64,000 nucleotides of DNA from Hydractinia symbiolongicarpus. Taxonomy: Eukaryota; Cnidaria; Hydrozoa; Anthoathecata; Hydractiniidae. The position numbers and the translations under genes were made by a program. The notes under the pieces were generated by a model, which saw only the letters and a list, made by a program, of their open reading frames with translations, had not been told where the DNA came from and did no database searches. Shown in pieces: positions 34,739-53,724 of this stretch; positions within the stretch are counted from its first letter, which is position 1; each line of letters starts with the position of its first letter. The stretch covers positions 17,980,001 through 18,044,000 of the forward strand of contig NC_079876.1 of the NCBI RefSeq assembly GCF_029227915.1. The letters are read 5' to 3'.

Positions 34739-35300
34739 CATTCTCATATCATTCCTTTCTAAACGGTCAAGATATACAATTCGGAATTCACAGCACACAG
34801 CCTAGTTAATTAACCTTTTGAGAAATGCTGGTTATGCCAAAAGTAACTGTGTCACCTGGCGTAAAATGCTTGGTGAAACAGTTAATACAAATTGTAAACT
34901 GTACCACACATTCAGGTGGAGCGCCTTAGTACAGGTGTGCAGTATATCGTAAATCGAGTGAAACACATAACTTTAAGCTGTTTCAGGTTTAATTATTTTT
35001 AGATTCAGAAAATATATTTCCTCCACCTTTAGCTGGAATAAAAACACAATTTACATATTGTGCCATGTCATAGCGAAAACAGTCAGCAAACCTTTTTTTT
35101 TCACAAAATGTTCCCGGTGAAACTTAAAATATATATGTACTTTAATCTGTGGTGCGTCATTAGTATAGGTAAACAAACCCTTTCAAAATACAGGTAATAG
35201 CTTGTCGTTAACACTAGGTTGAGTGATTAGTACAGATATACTGTGGCGCACACATACGTTTCGACATAATACCCCTTTCCGAAAAACTATCCTAACTTTA
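34739..35300. other. Left flank of module A, unassigned
   Basis: No genes. The left end of the DNA transposon module should lie here, but I could not pair an inverted repeat with the right side (39743-40140). The only shared word noted is AACACCCTCC (about 35322 and, inverted, 40130). Confidence 0.35.
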
Positions 35301-35360
35301 GTTCAAATAAACAGACAGTAAACACCCTCCTCGCAGTATATTTTCTTTCTTTTAGCCAAA

Positions 35361-35977
35361 ATGAAAGTGAAGGTGATTGAGAGCACTATCAAAGGTTATC
35401 ATGTACATCGAATACGACCACATCAAGACATAGATATGTTAGTGAAGCCAGTAGAGAACGAGTACGACAAGTATGCTATGGGTGTGTGGATGCCTAACTT
35501 GAGTGCCATTCCCGTTTCGTTACACGAATCGATAACAAGACCAGCAAAGAGGGGTTCTTCTACACAAAAAGTTAAGGACATAGCAGGCTCGCTCGTTGGA
35601 CAGCTGCCTGCGAATTTGGGGAAGGTGTTTCACGATTTGCTTCCCTATACGAAGAGCATTACATGGTAAGTATACACATCTGCTCCCTACATTTGTTCGT
35701 AGATATATGTGAACTTTTTGTTTTATTTCTTAGCAAATCAGTGGGTGATCCCATACCAAGCAAGAAGCCTCCACTGGATCAGAAATTTGAAAAGAGTGAA
35801 TGTGGTGGATATGATCGACGTGGTGGAGGTGTCATAATACCCAGTATCTACGTTTTAGATGTTGTGGAGGGGAAAACTGACTACGTTGTCAGGGAGCTTC
35901 ATAACTTTACCAAAAACTATGATGGGTGTACAGAGAGAGTTATTGTAGAAAACACAAGTGATTCTTGTCCATTTTGA
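35361..35977 (+). CDS. HIRAN-like domain protein, module A
   Basis: Two exons, 35361-35665 and 35734-35977, with a 68-nt GT-AG intron that keeps phase, give about 182 residues with no defects. The N-terminal half shows the HIRAN pattern: 'GYHVHRIRPHQDIDMLVKP', 'ENEYDKYAMGVW' (compare RE/KP-x-N-x-YD-x-x-A) and 'GSLVGQLPANLGKVF' (compare G-x-x-G-x-x-P). The C-terminal half has 'GGGVIIPSIYVLDV'. HIRAN domains are known from HLTF/SNF2 proteins, where they bind DNA ends, and as stand-alone proteins in mobile elements. A role in handling transposon or repair ends is inference. The homologue in module B is at 50569-51120. Confidence 0.75.
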
Positions 35978-36234
35978 ACTTATTTATCATATGTATTTAT
36001 GTACATTCATGTTATGTTCATTTTGAAAAGATGCAAATTATATACATTGAGTATGTCATGCTTTGATGCATGCTTAATAAATATATAATGCTTATAACAA
36101 CTCCATGTCTCTTTCATTCTATCGAATATATATTTTGGATTGTCATTACAGTAATTGTCCTCTGAACCTGTGTTCAAACTAGTGTATTCTATCTATTTGA
36201 AGTCATACCATACTCACATTTTAGAGCTAAAAAT

Positions 36235-36988
36235 ATGTCTGATGTAGAAGATATTGAGGTATATGATGAGAATGATAACAAAGTAAATTTAGAGGCTAAT
36301 AAAAAAAAGAAGTATGTCGCAGCTAAAAAAAAAGGTAAGGAAGACAAATTGGATTCTGTAACCAATTTATATTGTTTATTTAACATTTTCCTCTATGAAC
36401 TTTTAGGTACAAAGTATCTGGAGTCTGGAAAAGCACGTGCGAATGCCCGATATAATCACAGCAAAGGGTTTCAGCGGAAGATAAAGGAATTGAAGACAGT
36501 CACTGGTGACGATGTTTTGGTTGAAATACGCCATAATGTAACCCCTCCTGTTACACGCCGATGGTCAACGAACCAAGAAATGTTCAGTCGTTGCAATTCA
36601 AATTCATCAAGCACAACAATAACTTCACCATCTTCCGCTATTACTTCTCCCTGTTCAAGTGTTGCTAATATGGATCCTACATCAGCTCCGACCACAAGTA
36701 CTCCATCATCCAGAAGAAGAAAAAAAGAATGACCCGAAAAAAATTAACAGAGATGTATGCCAGAAATGCCTCACTATATATGGTAGTCGAACCGATAATG
36801 AGTATAACTCATTGTGGGTTAATTGTGCCAAACGTAAGTGTGACTACTGGGTTCATGCATACTGCATTGGTTTAGTCATTAATGAAAAAGACGAAGAAAA
36901 GTTTGACAGCACTGTGAAATATTACTGTCCACCACACAACCCGATGTCTTTACCAAGACCAAAATCTTTACTAAAAAAGAGATTATAA
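36235..36988 (+). CDS. MADS-like plus PHD-finger protein, module A (one frameshift)
   Basis: Exon 1 36235-36334 (acidic, then KKKK-rich), a 72-nt intron that is itself open in frame, then exon 2 from 36407. A segment 'KGFQRKIKELKTVTGDDVLV' resembles the SRF-type MADS helix and strand and aligns with the B protein. A Ser/Thr/Pro-rich linker follows. At 36715-36732 a run of seven A shifts the frame: one frame stops at 36732, the other continues with the PHD finger: CQKC, 'WVNCAKRKCDYWVHAYC' and 'YYCPPH' to 36988. The PHD ligands C-x2-C, C-x4-C, H-x2-C and C-x2-H are all present. The protein is probably a chromatin- or DNA-binding accessory factor. The MADS assignment is tentative. Confidence 0.7.
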
Positions 36989-37066
36989 ACCCTTAGAAAA
37001 CAACATAAACAGTTATAAAATTTTGTTGTATATTTTGTCTAGTTTTCATGCAAGATACATTTGTAT

Positions 37067-39742
37067 TTATTCACTGTCTTCATCCGAATCATACTGCACC
37101 AACAATCTTTGGTGTCTTATGTTTTGCAATGGTGTACCTGACGCAGCTTCTGTCCAGTATTCTTTCATCTTTTCTTTCACGGTTACTGTTATATCATCTA
37201 ACTCGAATGGTATTGGTTCAGAGAAAATATTTTTGATTACACCTTCTTCTTCTTTGTTGGTAAGCATATCGGATGATCTCAGAACTGCTCCCCATCTTAT
37301 TATTTCATTGTAAACATCTGCATCCTTATACTCGCTTTTATCACCCGTTTCCAAAATTTTTGATGCATTTTCAAGTACAGCATCGATTTTATCCAATCCT
37401 CTGGATATTTTCCTCCATGTGCCGTTTGAGACAACGCCCTTGGGTGCAACCATTTTGTGTTTTTTGATAGTGTTTTCGAGACAGAAATCTCCACCCTGGT
37501 AATTCAATTCAAGACTTGATCGGTTGTAGCAGCTATTCACTTCCATGAAATCTGTTATTTCTTGTGGATACAACGCTCTAAGATACAGATCTCTATATTC
37601 TACTTCGTGGTAGATTGGGTGATTGAACCCGTAAAAGAACGGTAAAAACTTCATTCGACCAGCATCAATCATATCCCAGTTATTTCTTCTAACGCCAGAT
37701 TTTTGAACATAAATAGCGAGTGCGAAATTGAATATTAGTTGATAAATAAGACGGAAGGTTTCGTTGTCGATACTGTTACACCATTCCAGAAATCGATTGG
37801 CATTGATCTCATTTCCACGATTCTCGATTACAAATAATGAAAACATTTCCATTGCTGTTCCTTCTAATAACACACGTAGAGTGTCATATGCCTTGTGGAG
37901 TATCCTTTGCTTTAACAAAATATTTGTACGCTTTGTCAGTGGAGAATCCCAGAACTTCTTTTCCAAGTGGTTCTAAAAGAATGTGATCTGCTACTTTGAA
38001 TAAACACTTGAGTTGATTCATATGTAAATGACCAAGACCAGTCACCACAGTTACCCAATCATAGCTCGGATTATCTTGTATTATTCTGCTCGTCAAACAA
38101 TACGGCGGTCCATCACAGCCCAGTACAGCCCATTTACGATCGTCGTCAATCAGTCGAGGTTTCATTTCATCCAGTATAGCTTTGCAGTTTGTGTAACTAT
38201 TTGGGTTTAACATGATTGGTTCACCTACTGTCACTTTCACATCATTTTTAATGACACTTGCTCCATAGCTTTTGGTTTTCGCAGTGGCAGCTTGATGCGA
38301 AGTGGGGTATACAGGATTTTCAGACGGTTTTTTAACAACCTGGCTTCCGCATTTGTCACATTTTCTTTTCAATGAGCTGTAGGTTTGGTCACAAAGGGGG
38401 GATGAACATTGTCTGGCATCACCTTTATTAATATCAATGATCTTTTGAACGTCGTCATTTTCATTCAACACAAGTTCCAAAATGTGTTCCACAAAGCGAG
38501 AGTGATAAATTTTAAAATATTGGTTACTTTTATTACGTATAGAATCCATCGCTTTTTGAACTTCAATGTCAGAGGGTTTGTTTTTATCACGCCAAAACCC
38601 AGGTTTCAATTCTTCCTTACTTTCGATATTACTATTTCGATATTTTGATGACGTATTTTCCCATATTGTCGAAAAAGGTAATCACGTCCCCAGAAGGACA
38701 CTGTATTGGATTCTCACCACGTTCATTTATCCATGTTTTATAGGTAGTGTAAGATGCACCAGGTGTTACCTTGCCATTCATGTTTGTTACAGTTTTGGAG
38801 CCGGAAGTAAAACTTTGTACTAAGTTTTGCATAAAACAATGAGGAAGCACAAGATTGAGATTTCTTAGGAAATATACCATTTTAATCGTTACAACTATAG
38901 CAAATAGGAAACTGTTTTTTGTTTGTTCCTCAAATTTGATGTTTGCAGCACCACAAATGAATGCAAGCAGTAAAGAATCTCGATTCTTTATGTAATCTTT
39001 TGAATCAATTGACGCAAGGTAATCAGGATTCTTATAGTTTCCTTGAAGTGTGTTTCCATCAGCGTAAATATTTTTTGCCACAAATTTCGAAGCAATAAGA
39101 TTTAGAAAAGTTCCAAGTTTAGCGCGATTTATCGAATTGATAGAAACTTCGTCGAGTTCATTTAGCACTGAGGTTGTATCGTCCATTAGTTTTTCCAATC
39201 TATGACATAAAAACATCAGGTTTTGTAACATGCTAACATACACAATGAATGCAAATAACGTGTAAATTTTGATACCTGGCAGCATTAATAGTCGTAGCAT
39301 TATCAGCTGCACCAGTTTCCATTTGGACACCCTGTATATTGTTATCATCCGTACTCAAATCTTCTTCCTCATCTGAACTTGAATGTTCTCTGTCGTAATA
39401 TCTATACAAAACAAATAGATGAAATAACAAATACCTTCAGTGTAAATTTATTTAATTGAAAAGTTTTCAACAAGAGAAAAAACTCCTGGCTAACCTGTTT
39501 TTGAAATGGTTATAACATGCTGTGCATAATGTATTTCCACGTTCTGGTAAATGCTTTTTTCTCATAGATCTAATGACCTTTTTCGAAAAGAATCTTCGTG
39601 ACGAAATACGCTTCACTTCGAAAATCTCGGAAAATGACCAATCATCGTGATTGATGCATCCACAAATAGCAGCAAACGTCCCACTTTCATCTCTTGTTCG
39701 GGTTGCCGCCACATTGCTCTTTCTGAGTTTTCTTTTAGGCAT
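37067..39742 (-). CDS. Large zinc-rich transposase-like protein, module A (two frameshifts)
   Basis: Exons 39742-39495, 39401-39276 and 39199-37067, with phase-correct GT-AG introns; about 830 residues if the frameshifts are ignored. N-terminus: 'CGCINHDDWSF' and 'LPERGNTLCTACYNHF', a probable C-x-C..H..C-x2-C zinc site. Then an acidic patch, a helical region, 'CSSPLCDQTYSSLKRKCDKC' (zinc ribbon), and a conserved core with 'GCDGPPYCLTSR', 'GLGHLHMNQLK', 'FFYGFNHPIYHEVEYRDL' and 'GGDFCLENTIKKHK'. The D in GCDGPP and the E/D in the last motif are candidate metal ligands. One-base frameshifts lie near 38645 (an A4 run) and 37903 (CC). The family is uncharacterised; the transposase role is inferred from its place inside a TIR-bounded element (B). 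Confidence 0.75.
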
Positions 39743-40739
39743 TATATTTTACTCTAAAAAACTGAAAGGAGTGCATACAGTGGTAATGAGACGTGCTTCA
39801 CATCGATCAATAATCTATTTATTTTTGTGATCATGGAACCAGAACACGAATTTTATAAAGAAACATTGTTGGCTATCAGTCAGAACATCGACTTTTCAAT
39901 AATAGTGTAGTTGCTCATTTGGTAAACAACAACATCCGTTCTTTGAGGGATCCCTCATTTGAGTGATAGCATATGCGACTAGCTAGGGATACCGCATTTG
40001 AGGGATCCCTCGAATACGGGTTGATCCTAACTGGCTTCGCACAGCGAAACATATAGAACGCAAAGATGCTGGAAAATGGTAGATATGCATTTGGGAAATA
40101 TCGAAAATTAGTGTGACGTTTCTGTTAGGGAGGGTGTTTTGAAGATAGAACGTCGAAATGACGTTTTTTTCGAAGAAAATCGATTTTTGACTCTTCCCTA
40201 ATAATTGAAAATTAATTACTTGGAATTCTTGCTACGCGTTAATAATTAAAATAAAATTAATTTCGTTTTATCGCAAAAATCAGGCTAAGCGTTAAATTAG
40301 AGTACGCGTTAAATTGGAGACAGCAACGGTATATACCCTTTATCATTTTTAGACGGAAATTAGCTTAGCTTTTACCAATGACGGTCGGCTTTGCTACACG
40401 AATTGTTTGATCGTAACTGACCATGTGTGTAGTGGTTTGTGCGCTGGGCACGGGATGGTCAGGACATTTATTGTCCACTTCATCCATTTGTTTTATGTGT
40501 TTACTCGATTTCATTTATTTTGATGTTTTTTATGTTATTTGTTGGCTCGGTTTGGTGGAGGAAGTAGGATGAGTCGTGTAATGATGTACCTCGTTGGTAA
40601 AGAGTGAAGGGCAGTGAAGAGGGATAAGGTGGAGAAGAAGAAGTAGAAATGTAGAAATGCAGGGATGGAGGCGGTGGTTTGGCTTTGTATAATTGCTAGA
40701 TTTTTCTCTTTGTTCCTTTTCAGAAATTCTTTGTTGCTA
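39743..40739. other. Right flank of module A and Jockey 3' region
   Basis: No gene. The palindrome GAGGGATCCCTC occurs twice (about 39948 and 40003) within 60 bp, each next to ATTTGAG. An AT-rich stretch at 40190-40320 has GCGTTAAATT words. From about 40600 on this may be the 3' UTR of the Jockey-like element. Confidence 0.4.
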
Positions 40740-40801
40740 TTTTCAGTTTCTCATTTTATTATTTTATTTTATTTTTTATGAATTTATTCCGAAAATTTTA
40801 T

Positions 40802-42163
40802 CTACGTACTATCGTTTATTAATTGAATGGGGGTTGGTATTCTGTCAAACGTGGGGTAATAGTTGACTTTGTTTATTAAGTAGTTTTTGATGCCTTTATT
40901 ATGTTCTTCCACGTTTTGGAGCCATTTTCTTGCAAGTGCAATAATTCTAATTTTTATAGTAGGGACATTTGCAATTTGAAGCAGCAGGCTATTTGGTCTA
41001 CGTGTGCTGAAGCCGTAAATGTAGCGAAGGTACTTTGTTTGTATTACTTCTATTTTTTTTAGGTTTGTTTCATTTAAAGTTATCATGGCAGTAGCACCAT
41101 ACTCCATTTTGCTTTTAACGTAGCAGTTGAAAAGATACTTCATTACGGGGACATTTGGACCGAAGGTGTTGTTTTTTAGTGTATACAGTATACTGGTTTT
41201 GTGTTTTATGGCTTTTATTGTATTGTTTATGTGTGCGTTGAAGTTGAAGTATTCGTCGAAGATGACGCCAAGAAATTTGGCTTTCGATTCTTTTTCTATA
41301 TTTTCATTTTTTATTTTCAAACTCATACATGCATTCTGTCTTTTTTTCCTAAAGTTTATTTGGGTTGACTTGGTAGTATTTAAACCCACTCTCCATATAT
41401 TGCACCATTCGTCTATTTTATCCAGTTGAGTCTGGAGTGTTTTTTTCATCTGGGATGTGTTTTTATGGGAAAACCAGATTGCAATGTCATCCGCAAATTG
41501 TGTTTGGATCACTTGGCTTGTTGGGATAGGGAGGTCATTAACAAATAATATATATAGGATAGGGCTCAAAGGGCTTCCTTGGGGAACTCCAAAGTTGGAA
41601 TGGAATGCTATTCCTTCTACCCCATCAACTACTACCCTGATCTCTCTATTTGTTAGGAAACTTTTTATCCAAAACAGAGTTTTCTTGTTGATATTCATTT
41701 TTTGAAGTTTCCATATGAGTCCGCTATGCCACACTCTATCAAAGGCTTTCTCTACATCCAAAAAGATGGCAGTGGAGGTTCTATTAAAACCTTGTGTTAC
41801 ATATTGACTAAGTCTGAATATGTGATCTTGAGTGGAATGATGTTTCCGGAACCCACTCTGATTTTCGTTCAGCAAATTGTTTGTTTCTGCCCATTCTTGA
41901 ATTTTTTTTGCCATAATTTTTTCTAATTTTCCTAAGTTACTTAGGAGGCTGATAGGTCTGTAGTTCTTTGCTAGCCTATGGTCTTTTCCCATCTTTGGAA
42001 TCATTGTCACTAATGCGGATTTCCATATTTTTGGATGATAACCTTGGCTGAGACAGCCATTAAAAATAGGAAGGAGGATTTCTGGGAGACTGTATTTAAG
42101 GGCTTTTATTAGTTTTGTTTCTGATTTTATCTGGGCCACTTGCTTTTTTAGGGTCAATGTCAT
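40802..42163 (-). pseudogene. Jockey-like ORF2: reverse transcriptase
   Basis: Motifs in order: 'YRPISLLSNLGKLEKIMAKK', 'NQSGFRKHHSTQDHIFRL', 'TAIFLDVEKAFDRVWH' (first catalytic D), 'GVPQGSPLSPILYILFVNDL', 'QTQFADDIAIW' (FADD), 'LNTTKSTQINF' and 'AKFLGVIFDEYFNFNAHI'. The C-terminal helical part ends at 40802. This portion is intact. Confidence 0.9.
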
Positions 42164-42747
42164 TTATGATGGTTACTATATCCTCGCGGGAAATATTTTC
42201 TTCACAGTTTGGGTAGTCAGAGGGATCAGATTTATCGATTTTCAGTTCATCTTCGATAACTTTTTTTACGTCCGCTCTGTATGTAGGTGAATCAAGCTTC
42301 TCGTTGCAGAGGGTGTCTTTTAGGAGGGAAGTAAAGATCTTACATTTTTCATCGTTTGTTTGGTATTTTTTGTTTTCATGTTTTAAAGTTGGTGTTGTTT
42401 TCTTTTTCTTTTTATTTGGATCGAAAAGGTTTTGCAATTTTTTAAAGGAGTTTTTGTCTGCAAAAGGGTTTATTGAGCAGCATAGTTTTTTCCAATTTTT
42501 ATTTTTTATTTTTGCTATGCTGTTTTTTATTTCCTTTTGCAGACGGTTGTAAGCATTTTTATCGTCTCTGTTTCGAGTTTTCATGTATTTTCTTCACATT
42601 TTTCTTTTTTCCTTTATTTTTTGTCGTATTTCTTGGGGTAAGGGGGTCGAGGAAACGTTTACATTCTTTGTTACGTTCTTGATATTGTCATCAATTCTTT
42701 GTTACGTTCTTGATATTGTCATCAATATTTTTTTTACAATTATTTTT
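42096..42747 (-). pseudogene. Jockey-like ORF2: linker and RT start, broken
   Basis: Continues the endonuclease frame, then meets the 31-bp tandem duplication (42664-42725), which shifts it, and a TGA at about 42597. It then runs from 42584 with 'RLQKEIKNSIAKIKNKNWKK' and 'INDIDPKKASGPDKI', the RT motif before the fingers. A one-base shift near 42130 passes coding to the next frame. Confidence 0.75.
42664..42725. repeat. 31-bp tandem duplication inside ORF2
   Basis: TTCTTTGTTACGTTCTTGAT plus 11 further bases, repeated exactly (42664-42694, 42695-42725). The length is not a multiple of three, so it frameshifts ORF2. Confidence 0.95.
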
Positions 42748-43599
42748 CTAATGTACGTGTTTATATCTCTTATTTAGAGATTTATTTATTTTTTCCCAGT
42801 CAACTTTGTGAAATAACTTTATTTCTTTGTATTGTTGTGTCTTTTTTCTTTTTGAACCTAGTTCAATGCTGATTGGTAAGTGATCAGAGCCGACGTCTTC
42901 GTTGACGCTAAAAGAATTTAGATGGCACAGTAAATCGTTTGAGATGATTGCTAGGTCGATTACATCACTCGCAAGGGTTTTGTCATCAGTATGTGTCGGA
43001 ACTTTGGAGTTGCAAACGAATAAATCGTGTTTTTCGATAAGTTGGAAAAGACGTTTTCCCTTGACATTTGTCTTTGAGCTACCGAATTCGCAATGCTTAC
43101 TGTTGAAGTCTCCTAGGATTATATGGGAGGGGTTTTCTTTGCATATGTTGTCAAAGTAATCAGCATTTATGTTTCCGGTAGGAGCATAAAAAGACGTCAC
43201 TTGTATCAGTTTATTTTGGAATGTTATTTTGATTGACGTTGACTCGTCTGAGGTTTGAGTATGTTTTAGAGTAACTATTTCGTGGACTATACCTTTTCTT
43301 ACTAATATGGCAACACCACCACCGGCTTTTCCCCTGTCTTTCCGCACTATATCATAGTTCTTTATCTTAATATTTTTATATGGTTGGAGTAGGGTTTCAT
43401 TGATGGCGAGAATGTCAATGTGATTTTCGTACTGGAAAGTCTCGATTTCTCCCTGTTTAGATAACAGTCCTCTCACATTTACGTGGGAAATTTTGAGGTG
43501 ATCATTCATTTGGATATTGAAAAGTTTGTTTGGTGGGTTGTGGTGTTTTGGTGGGTGTACGTGAAAGTTTTTTTGAAATGTCGGTGGGAGGGAGGTCAA
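42748..43599 (-). pseudogene. Jockey-like ORF2: endonuclease part
   Basis: APE-type endonuclease signatures: 'ISHVNVRGLLSKQGEIETF', 'IDILAINETLL', 'GGGVAILVRKGI', 'VTSFYAPTG', 'HIILGDFNSKHCEFGS', 'DVIDLAIIS' and 'VGSDHLPISIEL'. The catalytic E, D/N and the terminal SDH are present. The frame stops at TAG 42748-42750; homologous coding continues in frame beyond it. Confidence 0.85.
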
Positions 43600-44719
43600 G
43601 CTTATAGTAGCGGTTAATTACTTTAGTTACCGTTTCCAGGACCTCCAAAGCAGTATGTACACTTTTAGATCTCGTGATACTATCTGTTATAATAGCTGCC
43701 AGATCGAGTGGAGTTATACAGATGATATTTCTTTGTTCTTCTTGGGTTTTTTTTATAATTTTGATTTCTTCCACCACACTTTTTTCTTGTTTTTGTAGTT
43801 CCTCTGTTAATTTAATTTTTGTATTTTTTATTACGTCTGCGTAGGATTTTATTTTTTCGAATTCTTTTTTTGATTTTAACCTCCGCTGATATTCAGGGCA
43901 GCCCTTGTAAGCTGCGCTATGAGGGCCATTGCAGTTTGCACATTTTCTTTCGTCGTTTGTGCAGGTACCTTCGCAGTTTTCTGACGAACATCGGGCACAT
44001 CTGCTTTGTTTCTTACATAGTGACGTTAAATGGTCAAGCGCCTGGCACTTTGTGCACCTGCTAACAAGATTTTTATCGGGGTCAAACTTTCTGATTTGAT
44101 GTTCATGATCATCAATATTTATTTTGGCAATATTTAAAGTTTGGGATTTTGGGAATTGAAATAAAATAAGAGTAGTTTCATTTCCCTTTTTATTAATGAA
44201 TCTCTTGACATTTTGTGCAGCAATGCCAGCCTTGTCTAGTTCGTGCTTGACAAGGTCCAGATCTTTGGTCACTTCGTATTTATTAATGCAGAAAGTTGTA
44301 AAGTGCTTTTGCAGGGCATTATTTTCAATTTTTTGGAGGATATCTTTTCCTCCAAAAGCATCTTGAGGCCAAGGGGTGTTTAATATGGCATGGTCTCTTT
44401 CTGAAGAAAGAGTTAGAGATACTGTGTTTTCTGCTAGTATTTTATAAGACAGCATATTTAGAGCTGGCTTGCAGCGTTTAAGTTCCTTTATGAAATTTTC
44501 ATGTTTCTGGAAAGATTTGGGTATGTTGTATAGGAAGAATATATTGGTTTGATGTTTCTTAATAGGATGAGATGTATCCTCAAAACTGGTTTCTTTTCTT
44601 TTTGTTCCCTTAGGTAAGACCGTTTGAAAACCGTCTGAGTCTTCAGTTCTATTTATTTGAGCATATCGGCTATCAATAAATTTGAAGACATCGTCAGGTG
44701 AGGGTTCGTTTTGGTCCAT
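43502..44719 (-). CDS. Jockey-like ORF1 (gag-like, CCHC knuckles)
   Basis: 405 residues, intact. The N-terminus starts 'MDQNEPSPDDVFKFIDSRYA'. The central part is a probable RNA-binding region ('TNIFFLYNIPKSFQKHENFI'). Cysteine knuckles follow: 'CTKCQALDHLTSLC', 'CARCSSENCEGTC' and 'CANCNGPHSAAYKGC'; then a lysine/glutamate-rich coiled coil ('EFEKIKSYADVIKN'). Typical of Jockey/CR1-group ORF1 proteins, which package the element RNA. It overlaps the start of ORF2 by about 100 nt in another frame. Confidence 0.85.
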   Translation of the reverse strand: MDQNEPSPDDVFKFIDSRYAQINRTEDSDGFQTVLPKGTKRKETSFEDTSHPIKKHQTNIFFLYNIPKSFQKHENFIKELKRCKPALNMLSYKILAENTVSLTLSSERDHAILNTPWPQDAFGGKDILQKIENNALQKHFTTFCINKYEVTKDLDLVKHELDKAGIAAQNVKRFINKKGNETTLILFQFPKSQTLNIAKINIDDHEHQIRKFDPDKNLVSRCTKCQALDHLTSLCKKQSRCARCSSENCEGTCTNDERKCANCNGPHSAAYKGCPEYQRRLKSKKEFEKIKSYADVIKNTKIKLTEELQKQEKSVVEEIKIIKKTQEEQRNIICITPLDLAAIITDSITRSKSVHTALEVLETVTKVINRYYKLDLPPTDISKKLSRTPTKTPQPTKQTFQYPNE

Positions 44720-44904
44720 GTTTCTTTATTTTTAGGAAGGGAATGATATTTTGATCTCACAGATGTAGTGAAAGTTCCAGAAAAACACTGGATAACACAA
44801 GTTGTATGAAAGTTGTATGATAAGAAAAAGTTGTAGTTGTATGATGAGAAAGAAAAAAAAAAACTAGTTCCAGAAGATACAGGGGACTTTGGTTATAAGG
44901 GAAT

Positions 44905-45685
44905 CCATGACCCTAGCGGTTTTATTTACCCCAGCTGATTTATGTTGGTCAGTGCACCGTGAAACCGGAGTTTGCTCACTCCTCTCTTTGTATAGAGACA
45001 CTGTAAGAAGCACAGCAAGGGGGCTTGATATCATATCTTGTCTTTGGGCTTAACGATCCCACTTATAACCCCAGTCCAGTAGGGAGGCAGAGTTTGCTCA
45101 CTTTGCTTTCAGGATTGACAATCCTGCTGCCCTTAGTCATTTTAGAAGAAGCTTTGCAAGGGGGTTAGATTTTCTTATCTGGTCTTCGTGGTGTTACGCC
45201 CACGCATATTACCGCAGTTATGACAGGCTGGTACTGTCATTAGGCAGGTCCACAGCAACAATTATCTGTGTAAGGCTGAGTGTTGGAGTTCCATAACACA
45301 TGTGGAAAGCTACAGCCAGGGTCACAAGTCCTGGCGCGCAGATAGTTGTTTGCTTCTTAAACACATTCTCTAAAGAATAATTTTAAATTTATCCATTTAA
45401 GGATGTTCACGTTATGATAAGTTTTATTTATCTCATTTGTACCTATTTAATTCATTTTGAATTGCTTTAATATTTATTGTTTAGTGTTGTGTTCTGTCGC
45501 TGTTGTATTTTTCTGCCTTTTACGGTCAATGTTTTTAGGAAATCCTTGCAAAAAGGGGGATTGTGCTTTTTTGAAAAATCTCTAGAGGGTTGCAACCTCT
45601 AACTATAGTAGAACCAGTTGTCATTAGACAAGAAATATCATTACAGCTAGCTGTTTTGTCACCTCATTATCAATTCAATAACACA
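44905..45685 (+). mobile_element. REL-UCH retroelement, array copy I (3' UTR only, subfamily A)
   Basis: Begins TCCATGACCCTAGCGG and is nearly identical to 52954-53724. It holds two AGCAAGGGGG-type stem-loop modules, the GTAAGGCTGAGTGTTGG block, a TAGAGG/CCTCTA stem (about 45585-45600), the terminal hairpin ACAGC-TA-GCTGT (45643-45654) and the end TTGTCACCTCATTATCAATT. No coding part. Confidence 0.85.
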
Positions 45686-46166
45686 AAGATTTTAAAGATT
45701 TTTTTTTTTTCGTTGTTAAGCAGCAACAGCAGCACACGAATAACGACTGATAAGTTCTGGGTGCACACAAGGTTTTTGATGATGTATTTCCGCTTGTGGT
45801 GTCAGCTCGCCTAACAGTTCGTCGAAACAGTCTTCTTTTTCTTTAACGTATTCAACAAAGTGAACGTTTCTCGGAGGAGAACCTTCTCTGAGCAAGTTAG
45901 AAAAAAGTAACTGACCATCTTCCAATGCACTTTTGACGGAGTGTGGGAATGACTCGCTTATAGCTCACAACAAGGAGGACTACTTCTACTGAAAGAATAC
46001 CGTGTCATCAGTTTTTTTTAAAATCCCAAGCTCTATTTTGATAATTTTTTTTGTCCACTGAGATGGACATTAGGCACTCAAAACAAATGAAAAGGTATTC
46101 GTTATGATGATTTTTTTTGAAAAGACAACAAATATTGTTGTGTACAAAATACTTAATAAAAAAACA
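45686..46166. other. Unassigned
   Basis: A 69-codon minus-strand frame (45925-45716: 'FSNLLREGSPPRNVHFVEYV') is not recognised. The rest is T/A-rich. Confidence 0.35.
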
Positions 46167-46624
46167 CTACTGGTACACACCATGATACTCCCTAAAACAT
46201 CTATTGATGGCCAAACACAAGTAAATATGACATTTTGAGCACTGATACTTCGTCTTCTTTCTACAACCTTTGTTCTGACACCTTTGAGAATTCTGTATAT
46301 CGATCATAACAGGTCCGTGGTCGTATTTGTCATGTTTTATAACAGAAAGAAAATCGTTTGCTCTCATTAAACGATACGCTTGTTCCAGCTCGTCTTTCTC
46401 CTAATTCATTTGGATCTGTTGAGCACTGCTTTTGATCATGGAGAAGCAAATCTTTGCAAGAAATTTCCCAAGGGTTGCATGGTCACCAATCTGCCCGTAA
46501 GCTAACCAAGAGGTCACAGCAGCCAGGCTAAACATGTGGAAAGCAATACAGTTTTGCCACTTCCTGCATCGAAACAGGTACGGTAAAGGGACAAGAGCAT
46601 CTCTGCTTTGTCCACCCCACCCAT
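46167..46624 (-). pseudogene. piggyBac-type transposase, C-terminal part
   Basis: From the right (46624) down: the segment after MGGVD, then 'RKWQNCIAFHMFSLAAVTSW' and LAY (family: KW..F-x-H-x-x-x-x-A-x-x-NSW-x-x-Y), a nonsense TAG at about 46401-46403, and 'QAYRLMRANDFL'. It ends with the C-terminal zinc cluster: 'CQNKGCRKKTKYQCSKC', 'YLCLAINRCFREYH'. The gene is split by module B; its other half is at 51501-51800. Confidence 0.85.
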
Positions 46625-46700
46625 CAGTCAGGGATAACCGCAAATTAGGCTATGATAGTCTAATTAGTCTACGATAGCCTATTTAGGCGATTTATCTCTC
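46625..46700. repeat. Left TIR and sub-terminal repeats of module B
   Basis: A perfect terminal repeat of about 29 bp starts CAGTCAGGGATAACC. It is followed by GATAGTCTAATTAGTC, GATAGCCTATTTAGGCG and CCTAATTAGGCTATC, direct and inverted copies of one 12-15-nt word. Confidence 0.9.
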
Positions 46701-46977
46701 CTAATTAGGCTATCAACATGGTTTTTGCTGCCTATCGCTGTTCGGTTACATAGTCGCAATGATTTTATTAGCTAAAAACATTCTATAGAACCTCCTTTTG
46801 GTGGTCCAAATATATTTTTCTTTATTATTTGCGCTGTCAGAAGATATAGCGTTTAGTTTGTTTTGATTAAGAACGCATGCGCTGTTACGGCTTCTTTGTT
46901 TTACGGCCACGGTTGCTTCTGGAAAATAGCTTAATTTGTCTATTTTCAAATTTTTGAATTTCACGGCCCTTTTCAAT

Positions 46978-49659
46978 ATGGCTGCGCCAAAGGTCGGCTG
47001 CAAGTGTAGTGATCATGATGTTTGGATTACTCTTTCTTAAGATGAAAGTAAATCAGTTTGTCATATTGAAAGATCCAAAGTGAAGCAAACAGTTGTTAAT
47101 TACTTGAAATCACACAATTATTTATCCGAAAGATCAAGCTATCTTTGTAAAGCATGCATTAATATGGCAGAATACCTTATGAAACCAAAACCTGAAGATG
47201 TTGAAACTAAAGGACAAAGAGAGCATGGGTTGTCATGTGATAGCTTGGAGACTTTAATTGACGCATTTATAGCATATTTGTCAAAATCCAAAGTTTTAAC
47301 TAACCATGTACCAGATTCAAAATGGTCACAGTTATTTTTTTATCTTGGGAAAAGAGTTCTTTCGTATAAAATACAGAAAGATGGAGAATATTTAAGTACA
47401 AAATACAAAGATGCATCTTATTTGCAAACACTAAATCCAATGGAATTTATACTTCAGAGAGAAAATATTCTAGTTTCGTTTGTGGAAGGAATTTCAGGTC
47501 GGTACATTAAAAATGAACATAATTCTGGTATAATTTTCTATTTGGCTACCCTGATCGAAAACATATACTATTTGGTAAATTTAAATTAGATATTTCCACA
47601 TTCATTTGTTTCAAATCTGGTAGAGTCGTGTATTTCTGGATCTAAAATAGTAACAACTATTAATGTAAGATTTATCCAGCTGGCAGTTATTCTTCATATT
47701 TAAATTGGCTAAAGGAAATTGGTAGAAATAAGTTGGAATGTCCAAGTGGAGACATAGAAACCTACATTGACAATATTGGAAAATACATAATTCGCAACTA
47801 CCGTATTTCGAAGACGAAATCAGCTTTGGCTGATATTATCACATCAACGCTGCATATAAGTTTAATGGGCAATATTCAAACCATCGAATCGTTAAAACCA
47901 TGCTACTGGAGTACCGAAAAAAACACTTGGGGAAATCCAAGGAAAAATGGATGAAATCCTTCAAGGTTCACGCAAAGTTTTCAGAAAAGTTCGTTTCAAC
48001 TACATTAGCCAAATGATTGAACAGTACAAAAATGAAACAAATGAAATCACTAAAAGAATTTTTTTTTTACTTGTTATAATACAGTATTCATCAGTGTATT
48101 TTTCTGATTTTCATTTATATTTATTAGGATTGTGGGAAGGCATATGAGAATTGCAAGCGTGTTTGTGATGCGTGTGGGTCAGCAGTTAAGAAAGTCAATG
48201 AGGAACAACAGAAATCTTGTCAAACAACTTCAGTTGGTAACAAGTATTTAAATCTTGGTCAAAAAAGTGCTTGTAATAAACCATCAATTCAAGTTGGAGA
48301 GCCAATATTATTAAACCCCAACAGTTATGACAACAATAAATCAATTCTTGGTCAACTTAAAGAAAACCTTGCTGTATCTAAAAGTAGATTCTGGACATAC
48401 GTTGGATGTGATGGACCACCTTATGTACTTGCTAGCAGGCTTATTGATGATAACAAAGAAGATTATGATTGGATTACTTTACTTCCTGGCTTGGGACATT
48501 TAAATATGAATCAGGTATACAAATACATTTTTATGCAAAAAGGGACTGAACTAAAACAAACAAATAAAAAAAAAATGTGTAACATAACAATCTTTCAATA
48601 TAAAATACTTTCTGTTTTAAAAAATATTTACAGTATACTTCATGAATAATAAATATAAAAAAGCAATGTTTAAAAATGTACTCAAACTTATGCTGTTTAT
48701 TGTAATAATAAATAAAATATATTTACATGTTAGGTGAAAGGTTTCTTTAAGATATTGGACCAAATATGTTTGGAACCACTTGGCCGTGATGTGTTAAATT
48801 TTAACTCTCCAAAAGCGTATACCTACTTTAAAGATTGTAAAGATAATCACAAGGCATGGGAAGCCTTTGCATGGTACAATGTTAGAACTTATAAACAAAT
48901 ATGCAGAAGAAGAAAAGGGCAACATTAGTGCCATGGGTTTTATGGAATGGCAACACAAAGTTAGTTGCCCAACACTCAAGCTTATTTTACAGTTGATTAC
49001 TACATTTGGTTTGGGCATTTATACACAAAGAGTTGGTGACCGCAATAATGATATCAGCATAAGTGATGCAGGTAGATACGCTTTTGCAGATTGGTTTTTC
49101 GGTTTTAATCATCCGTTTTATCGTGAAATTGAGTACCGTGATTTGCTTAATAAAGCTATTTACCCTCCTAAAGTGCGAAAACATTTTCAATAAACGAATG
49201 TCATGGCGGAAATCAAGGTGGAGATTTTCTAATGGACCAAAAAATCAAACGTCAAAAAATGATGGCTCCTAAAGGAAATGTTGATAAGGCTACTTGGCAA
49301 CGTATATCAAATGTGTTGATACTTTTGACAAAATTTATGACAATGTTTCTAACTTGCTAAGCCTAAAGGATGACCCAAGATCTAGAAACATACTTTTAAG
49401 TGAAGAAATTACTGAATGGAGAGCATTTTTACGACATTCCAAGTTTTTAGATAAAACAGATAGCAGTCAAATATTTAACATCTTTGTTGAACCGATGAGT
49501 GATAGCCTTATCAATTTATTAGAAAGATTGCGAGAAAAACGATTGGAATATTGGCGGCAACATCAAAACGGCTTAAAGCTTTCAAAAATTAATTATGAAC
49601 TTTTACAGACCTATGCAGAAAAGGACGTTGATGAATATAGTGATGATGAACTATTATAA
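46978..49659 (+). pseudogene. Large transposase-like gene, module B (decayed)
   Basis: Homologue of the module A gene throughout. It opens 'MAAPKVGCKCSDHDVWITLS', then a TAA (47038-47040), 'YLCKACINMAEYLM', and 'SGRYIKNEHNSGIIFYL' to a TAG at 47587-47589. Beyond this lie 'LECPSGDIETYIDNIGKYII' and an exon 48128-48514 with a zinc pattern (CGKAYENCKRVCDACGS), 'GCDGPPYVLASR' and 'GLGHLNMNQ'. An exon from 48734 ('GFFKILDQICLEPLGRDVLN'), a frameshift near 48870, 'FFGFNHPFYREIEYRDL', another near 49190 ('GGDFLMDQKIKRQK', with D replacing the E of A) and an acidic end 'DVDEYSDDELL' complete it. At least two stops and four shifts make it non-functional. B has an intron after GHLNMNQ that A lacks. Confidence 0.8.
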
Positions 49660-49795
49660 ATATATATAACTATCCTAAAAAAATAATATATGCACACATT
49701 TATATAAAACGACTATACAAGCAACAAAATAATCTGATTATCGAACAAAATAAGTTAACAAAATAAAGTTTTTTAAAAAATTTTTTTGTAGAGTG

Positions 49796-50497
49796 TTAGT
49801 GTTTTAATTTTCTTCTAGCCGAAGTAACATGTCTTTTTATGTGTGTCGGACACCAAAAATTCCCCAAGTTTTTTACCCTTTTACAGGTAAAACCTAAGCA
49901 TAGAGCATGCACCCAATACTTGCACCCTCTTGCACTGCAACCAATCCAAGCTGAGTCTAAATCGTCCTCTGTGTCGTGCTTGGCTCGACATAATTGACAA
50001 GTGTTTTCGTCAATATCGATTGATGCTGTTTCAATTGGTGCAGAGGGTGTCAACGCATTGAGTGCAGCATCTAAATTTTGCAAGGTGTGTTGTGGAGTCG
50101 AGGGTTGTAATGACAACATGCTCTGGTCGGACAATGTTGTTACGTGACCCTGGAGAGCAGTCGAGGTCATTGGGCCATTGCAAGTGTCAGTATTTTTATT
50201 TAAGTACTGCTCAAGAAGCATACCTTGACATGTTCCAAAAACCTTTTTCTCTTTTGTAGTGCCATGCAGGAATTGAATAATGACATCATCTCCTGTGCAC
50301 AGTTTTAATAATGAAACACTATTTAAAATTCCATTTCTTCTTTTATAGCAACAGTCGCTTCTGGCAGCTGAATTTTTCATGAATTCCTTTCCTCGGCACC
50401 TTTTTTTAGTGGGACTGCTTCCAGGCTCACAAACTTTACTTTTGTTTTTATTTTTTAATTTAACAAGATTTAAGTTGTCATCAAAAATTTCAGCCAT
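49796..50497 (-). CDS. MADS-like plus PHD-finger protein, module B (intact)
   Basis: 233 residues in a single exon. Basic N-terminus ('KLKNKNKSKVCEPGSS'), then 'CYKRRNGILNSVSLLKLCTG' with DDVIIQF, which aligns with the A protein and resembles a MADS domain core (KRR-x-G-x-x..L-x-x-LC-x-x-x-V-x-x-x-x-F). A Ser/Thr/Pro/Gln linker follows. The C-terminal PHD finger has CQLC, 'WIGCSARGCKYWVHALC' and 'FWCPTH'. All eight zinc ligands are visible. The gene runs convergent to the transposase-like gene (137 bp apart) and shares the strand of the HIRAN gene. Probably a DNA/chromatin-binding accessory protein of the transposon; the function is inferred. Confidence 0.75.
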   Translation of the reverse strand: MAEIFDDNLNLVKLKNKNKSKVCEPGSSPTKKRCRGKEFMKNSAARSDCCYKRRNGILNSVSLLKLCTGDDVIIQFLHGTTKEKKVFGTCQGMLLEQYLNKNTDTCNGPMTSTALQGHVTTLSDQSMLSLQPSTPQHTLQNLDAALNALTPSAPIETASIDIDENTCQLCRAKHDTEDDLDSAWIGCSARGCKYWVHALCLGFTCKRVKNLGNFWCPTHIKRHVTSARRKLKH

Positions 50498-50568
50498 ATT
50501 TATTAGTTGTTTCTAATGTAAATAGCAAATATAATAAAACAATAGATATATATACACCAAAAAAAAAT

Positions 50569-51120
50569 TTACAATGTTGCCACATGTGTTTGTCCCTGTA
50601 AATCAGATATGACGTCTCGTATTGTATTTTGAGTGTCAGCTTCAAAACAGTACATACATTCTAGCTTAGGGCCACTTCCCAGTGTTGGGTGATCCCCATG
50701 CTGCATGCTACCTGTAAAAAAACATGTGCCCCTGCGAATTTGTCCAGAATCAAAACGACTTGCTAATATTCCCGCAACCACTCGAGGAACTCTTCCAACA
50801 GTTCGTCCAGCTATCCTTCTGACTGTATCCCCTGTGCGCTGCCTTACAACAATGTCTAAGATTTCTGGATTGAGTTCATGTATAGGAGGCACAAAAACTT
50901 TGATAGCATTTGTATCATATTCGTTAGAAGGCTCTCGTACTAGCATCATTGGCATTTCCATGCCAACAAGAGGCCTAACTTGAAAAAAGTGAAACCCGTT
51001 AACTACACAAAACGTTATGAAAAATGCTCCATTTTCTTCGCTATACCAATCTTGGCGAGTACGAAATTCGCAGTAGCTATCTACATACATCCTACTTTCA
51101 GCATTATTTAAGTTGGCCAT
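50569..51120 (-). CDS. HIRAN-like domain protein, module B (intact)
   Basis: 183 residues, single exon, ATG at 51120. N-terminal 'YCEFRTRQDWYSEENGAFF' precedes the HIRAN pattern 'NGFHFFQVRPLVGMEMPMML', 'LVREPSNEYDTNAIKV' and 'RTVGRVPRVVAGILASRF'. The C-terminus has 'GTCFFTGSMQHGD' and 'KLECMYCFEA'. Compared with the A homologue it has a longer N-terminus and no intron. The REP-x-N-x-YD-x-x-AI core is the most HIRAN-like part. It lies next to the right TIR, 380 bp away. Confidence 0.8.
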   Translation of the reverse strand: MANLNNAESRMYVDSYCEFRTRQDWYSEENGAFFITFCVVNGFHFFQVRPLVGMEMPMMLVREPSNEYDTNAIKVFVPPIHELNPEILDIVVRQRTGDTVRRIAGRTVGRVPRVVAGILASRFDSGQIRRGTCFFTGSMQHGDHPTLGSGPKLECMYCFEADTQNTIRDVISDLQGQTHVATL

Positions 51121-51189
51121 GTTTTAGCTTCGTTAAACAAATAAGAAAGTTGCGCTGGTACAGAAAACCTTATATTGGCGCGAAATAAC

Positions 51190-51500
51190 CTTCTGATAAG
51201 ATATCATAGCTTAATTAGTCTAGCATAGCCTAATTAGCAGATAGAAAGTCTTTTGGCCTATAATTTTTAGTTCCGCGAAGCAAATTACATGAAATTTTAC
51301 TTGACCAAAGACGACTTGACAGGCCACTGGATAGCCAAAAAAACATGGCGCAACTATACGTCGTTTCCGTTATATTTAACAAAGAAGATAGCAAATCCCC
51401 TAAATAGGAAATACTCGCCTAAATAGTCTATGAAAAATCTCCTAACTAAGCTACTAGCCTAATTTGGCGTGATAGCCTAATTTGCGGTTATCCCTGACTG
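51190..51500. repeat. Right TIR and sub-terminal repeats of module B
   Basis: Copies of CATAGCTTAATTAGTC, CATAGCCTAATTAGC, CCTAAATAGG, CGCCTAAATAGTC and TAGCCTAATTTGGCG precede the terminal repeat, which ends ..GCGGTTATCCCTGACTG at 51500. Confidence 0.9.
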
Positions 51501-51800
51501 CCCATGAGCTTGTTATAGATTGCAACAGACCTTGTGTGATCAAAATCGATTTTCCAGCCACAACCTTTTTTCCCCATTTCTTTTTCGGAGAAAATTGGAC
51601 ATCGCCTTGTCCAATGCCAATTAAGAGCTTGATGTCATTCGTTACATGCTCTAAAAGTGACCGTTTACTTTTATGCAATTCCAAAGATTCTTTTGTGTCT
51701 AACAGTGCACCTACTTTGAAAGCTGGCACTTGAAAAGGGGATAATGCAGTAAGAATAGAGGCAAAGGTGAAAGTATAGTCAGTCGTAGGAAGTCAGAATC
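51501..51800 (-). pseudogene. piggyBac-type transposase, central part
   Basis: Minus strand, frame ending at the module B insertion: 'PIFSEKEMGKKGCGWKIDFD' then 'HTRSVAIYNKL', which runs into MGGVD when one CCCAT is kept (family: YN-x-x-MGGVD-x-x-D). Upstream (51600-51730) homology becomes uncertain and is frameshifted. No catalytic DDD residues are identified in what remains. Confidence 0.75.
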
Positions 51801-52034: not shown

Positions 52035-53724
52035 AAAGGGCTGGAATGTTTGTAGTGAATCTGCTTGCTCGTATGTCCAGACAAGTATGTACAACAGCAC
52101 ATGTTTTTTTAGGTGCTTCCAAGGTTGCTCTATCACAAGGAAGGTTCACTTTCTGACACGAAGCTGTGGTTCCCAAGCATTTCTTATCTGAAGTTGTCCT
52201 GGAAACCAAAAAGGACCTTAAAATGTCATTTGTGAAAGCAGGTAGCTATTCCTCCGGTAAAAGATCAAAAGCAACTGGTCTATTCTACTATGCTAGAGAC
52301 TGGGTGATTTTAGCAGATTTGAATAAAGGATTTGTGTTTCCTGGCCATATTGCAATCCCATCCCTCAGGCCAGACAACTAAATACTCTAATTGTTTTAAG
52401 CGTGTCATCATTATTGAACAAACTTGTCCTTGCGTGAAAAACATGGGATCCTGCCATACCACCAAGGTTGAGGTAATGCATAGCAACGGGTGGTTTTCGC
52501 ATCGTGTTGCAGTAGAAGTGGGTTCTAGGGGCTACTCTTCAATGTGTCTAACATGCTGTTTAAAAAGTCTTGGTTTCGACAGCACATCTGCATTATTAAC
52601 AACCCGCAAGCTTGGCTACATAAGCATGAAAGCATTCTCTTGCATTTGAATTGCACAAGTTCACCACAGTGATCAAAAGATCTTACGCACTGCAGTCCGT
52701 TAACATTGCCACGACCAACGGATAGTATACTTTATCAAAATTTCTCGTCTGTTACCAAATCCAATTAAAGTCCATCTTCACCCATCTCTCCCAAAAACCC
52801 ACAGAAGACAATTTGGTTTGATAAACAAGGGGAACACACTATGCAAACTCCATTTTCCAAGCATTACCTGTTCTTTCCAGACTTTAATCTCAATTAACAT
52901 GAGAGTCCTCTTTGTCATCTCCTCCAGTAAAGTCTGTGGTCCTTAATATGTCTCCATGACCCTAGCGGTTTTATTTACCCCAGCTGATTTATGTTGGTCA
53001 GTGCACCGTGAAACCGGAGTTTGCTCACTCCTCTCTTTGTATAGAGACACTGTAAGAAGCACAGCAAGGGGGCTTGATATCATATCTTGTCTTTGGGCTT
53101 AACGATCCCACTTATTACCCCAGTCCAGTAGGGAGGCAGAGTTTGCTCACTTTGCTTTCAGGATTGACAATCCTGCTGCCCTTAGTCATTTTAGAAGAAG
53201 CTTTGCAAGGGGGTTAGATTTTCTTATCTGGTCTTCGTGATGTTACGCCCACGCATATTACCCCAGTTATGACAGGCTGGTACTGTCATTAGGCAGGTCC
53301 ACAGCAACAATTATCTGTGTAAGGCTGAGTGTTGGAGCTCCATAACACATGTGGAAAGCTACAGCCAGGGTCACAAGTCCTGGCGCACAGATAGTTGTTT
53401 GCTTCTTAAACACATTCTCTAAAGAATAATTTTAAATTTATCCGTTTAAGGATATTCACGTTATGATAAGTTTTATTTATCTCATTTGTACCTATTCAAT
53501 TCATTTTGAATTGCTTTAATATTTATTGTTTAGTGTTGTGTTCTGTCGCTGTTGTATTTTTCTGCCTTTTACGGTCAATGTTTTTAGGAAATCCATGCAA
53601 AAAGGGGGATTGTGCTTTTTTGAAAAATCTCTAGAGGGTTGCAACCTCTAACTATAGTAGAACCAGCTGTCATTAGACAAGAAATATCATTACAGCTAGC
53701 TGTTTTGTCACCTCATCATCAATT
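52035..53724 (+). mobile_element. REL-UCH retroelement, array copy II
   Basis: Contains the end of the ORF before the ubiquitin hydrolase: a decayed zinc knuckle ('QVCTTAHVFLGASKVALSQG'), the restriction-like endonuclease (next entry), then a non-coding gap and a complete subfamily-A 3' UTR (52954-53724) nearly identical to copy I. It ends with ACAGC-TA-GCTGT (53692-53703) and CACCTCATCATCAATT. The UCH part is missing (internal deletion between about 52800 and 52950). Confidence 0.8.
52100..52650 (+). pseudogene. Restriction-like endonuclease (R2-type) region, copy II
   Basis: Segments: 'GASKVALSQGRFTF', a stop, 'HEAVVPKHFLSEVVL', 'ARDWVILADLNKGFVFPGHI', 'AIPSLRPDN', a stop and shift, 'YSNCFKRVIIIEQTCPC', 'NGWFSHRVAVEVGSRGYSS', 'CCLKSLGFDSTSALL'. 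RPD..E corresponds to the PD-(D/E)xK-like pair of R2-clade endonucleases, which nick the target DNA. Two or more defects. Confidence 0.75.

Follow-up and report, generated by a model that had tools for sequence, protein, structure and literature searches.

Described systems closest to the Hydractinia elements

RAG-like transposons (RAG1L/RAG2L) pair a transposase with a convergent partner gene whose product bears a PHD finger, and their insertion leaves a 5-bp target-site duplication (TSD) (PMC7204232). In Rehavkus, the PHD finger lies within the transposase and the TSDs are 9 bp long (PMC6446971), and fungal TET/JBP transposons carry an accessory gene across lineages (PMC12730594). Here we describe two elements, A and B, in a 64,000-nucleotide stretch of the genome of the hydrozoan Hydractinia symbiolongicarpus (contig NC_079876.1, positions 17,980,001 to 18,044,000, forward strand; G000:C2:17980001-18044000 in our numbering), referred to below as the window. 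Each carries a large zinc-rich gene predicted to encode a DDE transposase, a gene for a protein with a MADS-like domain and a PHD-like finger (MADS-PHD), and a gene for a HIRAN protein. The convergent PHD-bearing partner and the 5-bp TSD are shared with RAG-like elements; however, the RAG-like partner combines Kelch with PHD, whereas here a MADS-like domain accompanies the finger, the ends are different, a HIRAN gene is added, and the transposase is closer in fold to those of P and hAT elements. The TET/JBP transposons resemble A and B in carrying an accessory gene across lineages but differ in kingdom, genes and transposases. As judged from titles and the beginnings of abstracts, none of the open-literature papers listed by our searches describes a transposon with both HIRAN and PHD genes; Repbase may already name the lineage.

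We consider it highly probable (roughly 0.8) that A and B are degraded members of a group of DNA transposons that move by cut and paste and encode a DDE transposase, a MADS-PHD partner and a HIRAN protein. This reading draws on observed ends, target duplications, an empty site, a non-autonomous derivative, gene linkage and, in some families, clustered CArG boxes, together with a predicted transposase fold; the catalytic residues, and the roles in binding DNA, reading chromatin and protecting ends, are inferred. Cut-and-paste transposition with a 5-bp stagger is well supported, and the protein responsible is probably of the DDE type. More tentatively, the group may constitute an unnamed transposase superfamily with its own MADS-type protein, fused to a PHD finger and binding CArG boxes in the element ends, and with a HIRAN end-binder swapped between element lineages; the transposase and its MADS-PHD partner would be an independent RAG1-RAG2 layout. 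If so, the pairing of a transposase with a convergent PHD-bearing protein evolved on two or more occasions, and the reason why the V(D)J recombinase has a PHD subunit would become open to comparison.

Boundaries and gene content of elements A and B

The initial annotation had described two modules holding the same three genes in mirror order, and both indeed contain them. The features, in window coordinates, are as follows.

46620-46624: TSD CCCAT, left copy, element B
46625-46653, plus strand: left terminal inverted repeat (TIR) of B, 29 bp, perfect, CAGTCAGGGATAACCGC...
46678-46687: CArG-type box CCTATTTAGG, left subterminal region of B
46700-46709: CArG-type box CCTAATTAGG, left subterminal region of B
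46978-49659, plus strand: transposase gene remnant of B (stops, gaps), with N-terminal zinc finger, zinc ribbon, GCDGPP and GLGH
49796-50497, minus strand: MADS-PHD protein of B, 233 aa, open
50569-51120, minus strand: HIRAN protein of B, 183 aa, open
51399-51408: CArG-type box CCTAAATAGG, right subterminal region of B
51458-51467: CArG-type box CCTAATTTGG, right subterminal region of B
51472-51500, minus strand: right TIR of B
51501-51505: TSD CCCAT, right copy, element B
35326-40033, minus strand: element A, truncated; homology to relatives L015/L025 ends near 35326, one TIR at 40033
39994-40033, minus strand: surviving TIR of A (CAGTTAGGATCAACCCG...)
37067-39742, minus strand: transposase gene of A, in three pieces that differ in frame, with an additional N-terminal zinc-finger exon
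35361-35977, plus strand: HIRAN gene of A, open pieces 35361-35669 and 35663-35977, probably joined by an intron
36235-36988, plus strand: MADS-like (36235-36732) and PHD (36659-36988) pieces of A

The TIRs and target duplication claimed for B were borne out: the two 29-bp repeats are identical and are flanked by CCCAT. Both modules exist as proposed, but their limits had to be corrected, to 46625-51500 for B (4,876 bp) and approximately 35326-40033 for A. Element A carries a single TIR end (CAGTTAGGATCAACCCG, reading leftward from 40033), recognized through its relatives L015 and L025; homology to these stops near 35326, and the other end is lost. A TIR search of A by comparison of its own flanks had given a best score of 33 against a shuffled best of 31. 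The transposase genes of both elements are broken.

The proteins of A and B are homologous yet well diverged, as had been suggested, and the two modules are not a local duplication. The transposases are 38% identical over 284 aligned residues, a figure that leaves one A piece outside the comparison and covers the rest only; the HIRAN proteins are 31% identical over 77 residues and the MADS-PHD proteins 24% over 251.

Relatives in the genome and evidence for mobility

A search of the 480.9-Mb genome with protein P0003 gave 50 rows, which were grouped by hand into 21 loci, A and B included; the other 19 were retrieved. A MADS and/or PHD match was present in 15 of the 21 loci, a HIRAN match in 12, and both in 11. 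Neither was detected in five (L016, L019, L023, L026 and L027), two of which, L026 and L027, are weak transposase matches, and L017 has an extra HIRAN copy with stops just beyond the stretch used for the count. In most loci the genes are linked, and the scattering that would have spoken against a common set was not seen. Their proposed common arrangement holds for A and B but not for all members: HIRAN was not found in L013, L020, L022 and L023, and the members of the L009-L012 family have it upstream of the transposase on the same strand. The steadier core is the transposase with its convergent MADS-PHD gene; HIRAN is not universal. The only other named cnidarian record that we met was the Clytia protein P0018.

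That the three-gene set is a mobile unit, first proposed from B, is upheld by ten two-ended elements, nine of them with a perfect 5-bp TSD (TCTCA, ATTTG, AATTA, CCCAT, GCCAT, ATAGC, ACAAT, TCTAT and CCAGA) and the tenth, L012, with four of five positions matching. Their ends have the sequence CAGTCAGGG or CAGTTAGG; the left end of L022 and the right end of L012 each deviate from this by a single base. We also found a 514-bp non-autonomous element (L033:2739-3252) with B-type ends, the TSD AATGT and two CArG boxes; a HIRAN match of the A/L009 type lies about 0.9 kb away. L009 to L012 form one family with open frames for a transposase of 837 aa and a MADS-PHD protein of 328 aa; the identity of their pieces to L009 in the protein alignment is 98, 90, 98 and 97%. 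Because their DNA is 95.6-98.9% identical over long shared stretches, transposition is recent, and the group is both diverse and recently active.

When B is excised in silico with one copy of CCCAT, the flanks form a continuous 79-aa minus-strand frame (...VAIYNKL / MGGVDKAEMLLSLYRT...). The openness of this frame alone proves little because two more frames (127 and 76 aa) are open across the junction too; the argument is carried by the motif, which resembles the YNxxMGGVD stretch of piggyBac transposases. A Pfam scan of the 151-aa joined flank protein in another frame gave no match. The insertion site of B (window 46200-46624 and 51506-51730) may accordingly be a piggyBac-like transposase remnant, an observation that depends on this motif.

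A viral or bacterial source was considered and is unsupported: searches of viral and prokaryote contigs with two peptide patterns each, and tblastn against phages, found no relative at that sensitivity.

The transposase and its superfamily

The large protein is predicted to have an RNase H-like transposase core in which GCDGPP, GLGH and GGDF..E, the motifs singled out by the initial annotation, are plausibly placed. In the model, the first Asp ends strand 1 in (F/Y)DNxGxY, a zinc ribbon is inserted between the first and second Asp, the second Asp lies in GCDGPP, GxxHxxxN follows strand 5, and after a helical insertion the last acidic residue is probably that of GGDFxLE. The putative triad, D274/D482/E694, in a candidate catalytic domain spanning roughly residues 250-740 of the L009 protein, was assigned by topology and conservation. 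In a 12-row alignment, all invariant or nearly invariant cysteines precede the second Asp and none follows it. Such a protein would cut the CAGT...ACTG ends and insert the element with a 5-bp stagger.

Foldseek with the predicted fold returned no significant match. In fold comparisons the P element and Hermes were nearest. This agrees with the view that the elements are a divergent, possibly catalogued lineage of the P/hAT/Kolobok/MuDR group and that the accessory genes are unimportant hitch-hikers, an alternative that we take seriously while thinking it probably wrong. Of the (C/D)xxH motif that marks the P/hAT/MuDR/Kolobok/Dada group after the second Asp, the histidine is retained in 24 of 28 sequences; the C/D position, however, is G in all 28, which turns the motif into GxxH. 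No Pfam transposase family was matched at E ≤ 0.1 among 41 members, and at the same threshold these 41 lack a match to the hAT dimerization domain, nor was any P-element or THAP Pfam match seen in them. Moreover, the accessory genes recur across deeply diverged lineages.

The TSDs and domain layout allow a similar comparison with individual superfamilies. The P superfamily has TSDs of approximately 8 bp and P/THAP families, whereas the elements described here have 5-bp TSDs, a zinc ribbon between the first and second Asp, and accessory genes. The hAT criterion is 8 bp (5 to 7 in sublineages), compared with 5 bp here, and hAT lineages with 5-bp TSDs (hAT5) do exist (PMC12730594), which favors membership in the group; the missing dimerization-domain match and the altered GxxH set our proteins apart from Hermes. 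A second point in favor of membership is the zinc finger that follows the first Asp in some Kolobok lineages (PMC9587614). Accessory proteins are common among Kolobok and KolobokP elements (PMC9587614). Kolobok TSDs, however, are TTAA (3-5 bp in KolobokP) and the TIRs start with RR, as opposed to varied 5-bp TSDs and a CAGT start here, and no accessory genes like ours appear in the available portion of PMC9587614. We set aside hATx-6 of Hydra, considered because short-TSD hAT lineages exist, since it has 8-bp TSDs (PMC8721813). The papers found on AcademH concern something else.

The convergent PHD partner, the CA...TG termini and the 5-bp TSD would also be expected of a relative by descent of Transib and RAG-like elements, and the clade of CACTA, Transib and relatives (CMCT) does share 5'-CA..TG-3' ends and 2- to 5-bp TSDs (PMC12730594). 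We nevertheless regard such descent as very improbable. P element and Hermes score higher in fold, no RAG1 match occurred in 41 transposase rows, scans of MADS-PHD proteins gave no Kelch match, the ends read CAGT(C/T)AGG, and the C(2)C/H(3-4)H signature described for the clade between the second D and E (PMC12730594) is not seen here.

The transposases show some likeness to the Pfam family DUF6589 (PF20231), which has no assigned function. Three of 41 members match it at E ≤ 0.1, weakly and in profile order; the best score, 25.7 bits, is below the cut-off of 27, and P0004 reaches an E value of 5.6e-6. An open-access search found no literature on DUF6589. The weak match suggests that it may be a DDE transposase domain.

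The MADS-PHD protein and CArG boxes at element ends

The Pfam MADS box model (SRF-TF, PF00319) matched B with an E value of 0.013 (0.0074 for the cut-out domain), below the cut-off, L009 with 0.12 and L017 with 0.35, and it did not match L014, L013 or A; the best score was 16.2 bits against a cut-off of 26. A profile comparison supports the MADS assignment. When a profile of six element proteins, five of which were kept by the filter, was aligned by hhalign with five typed MADS domains, 60 columns were matched with a score of 27.2 (P = 3.9e-5, probability 43%); the maximum of 20 column shuffles was 16.1. A phmmer search of PDB sequences with the MADS part of L009 gave no match. PHD (PF00628) scores were 17.1-23.0 bits in six proteins (A 22.6, B 19.1), below the cut-off of 24, but the L014 homologue matched PDB sequences that belong to PHD-finger proteins.

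Perfect CC(A/T)6GG boxes occur four times in element B, one pair lying no more than 85 bp from the left end and the other no more than 102 bp from the right end. There is no perfect box in the 4,176 bp between the ends, and in 200 dinucleotide shuffles of the end sequences the count never reached four. Near boxes, with one outer base changed, number 7, 7 and 6 at the ends of L010, L011 and L012, as against 1, 0 and 0 in their interiors, and for each of the three elements 0 of 200 shuffles had as many at the ends; these ends have no perfect box. C(A/T)8G boxes number 3, 3 and 2 in the same elements, counts matched by 8, 5 and 37 of 200 shuffles. In L014 there is one perfect box (15 of 200 shuffles) and three when near boxes are counted (0 of 200). 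No perfect or near box was found at the ends of L013, L022, L023, L015 and L025. The YKRRxGIL stretch of the MADS-like domain is kept in families with boxes and lost in L013 and A, a pattern consistent with a DNA-binding protein and its element's ends having evolved together. This reading is tempered by three points: the near-CArG pattern was chosen after the repeats had been inspected, the repeats within one element are related to each other, and the independent families are few (two or three in favor and two opposed).

In families whose MADS-like domain retains its basic stretch, the MADS-PHD protein would most likely bind the CArG-type repeats just inside the ends and act as a transposition cofactor, a repressor or both. 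Its PHD finger would tie the complex to histone tails, a division of labor resembling that of RAG1 and RAG2. Given the sequence support in some families, we put the odds that MADS-PHD is an end-binding, chromatin-reading partner at about even. If it is, this would be a mobile element that owns a MADS regulator plus its binding sites.

The HIRAN protein

HIRAN (PF08797, cut-off 24.7) scores 35.7 bits in B (E = 7.6e-9), 35.8 in L014 and 15.6 in L009; the cut-off is exceeded by the B type only, and the first HIRAN piece of A has no Pfam match alone. This piece is 51% identical to the HIRAN protein of L009 and 31% to that of B. A 96% copy of the B gene occurs on contig C6, and the NCBI H. symbiolongicarpus protein P0013 shares 93% identity with a stretch that makes up a quarter of the B protein. 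Neither phmmer of the B protein against PDB sequences nor a profile search with A3 gave a relevant match.

The transposase tree unites L009, L014 and B (100/99) and keeps them separate from A, L018 and P0001. The HIRAN tree instead places L009 with A and two orphan loci, opposite B, L014 and L031 (100/100; the inner branches lack resolution), and the L009-type HIRAN gene lies on the opposite side of the transposase gene. From this disagreement and the different gene side, it is probable that lineages replaced or swapped their HIRAN genes; an ancestor with two copies, lost differently among its descendants, would leave an identical pattern.

HIRAN matches without a transposase match occur in ten places. 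In several of these the matched stretch contains an open HIRAN frame, and three of the five retrieved have a MADS-like neighbor, as a host gene pair might. Capture of HIRAN and MADS-PHD as host genes by a transposon in Hydractinia nevertheless strikes us as quite unlikely: the genes recur beside transposase lineages that are mostly 29-48% identical to each other, they lie inside elements with perfect TSDs, and the orphan L031 keeps a degenerate B-type TIR with 3 mismatches in 24. In a region of approximately 60 kb (G000:C13:21818733-21878102), HIRAN matches occur in three spots, perhaps a local amplification.

An NxYD motif is kept in all seven HIRAN sequences examined and presumably lies around the N90-N91 Asn pair of HLTF. 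In HLTF, the N90A-N91A mutation disrupts HIRAN, the domain is needed to remove Cas9 from cut DNA, and isolated HIRAN inhibits this removal (PMC11237066); a role in fork binding has also been described (PMC4666394). By analogy, the stand-alone HIRAN protein would most likely bind 3'-OH DNA ends after cleavage and could keep host HLTF-type translocases and resection off them. We rate this role as guard of 3' ends as doubtful; if correct, a parasite would here be using HIRAN as a separate protein, comparable to isolated HIRAN competing with HLTF at cleaved DNA.

Other features of the window

A 48-bp identical direct repeat is present in two copies 8 kb apart (window 44904-44951 and 52953-53000); it may be longer, as position 53000 is the edge of the searched region. 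Between A and B lies a long interspersed nuclear element (window 40802-44719, minus strand) with matches to reverse transcriptase (E = 9.7e-37) and endonuclease (E = 7.1e-21).

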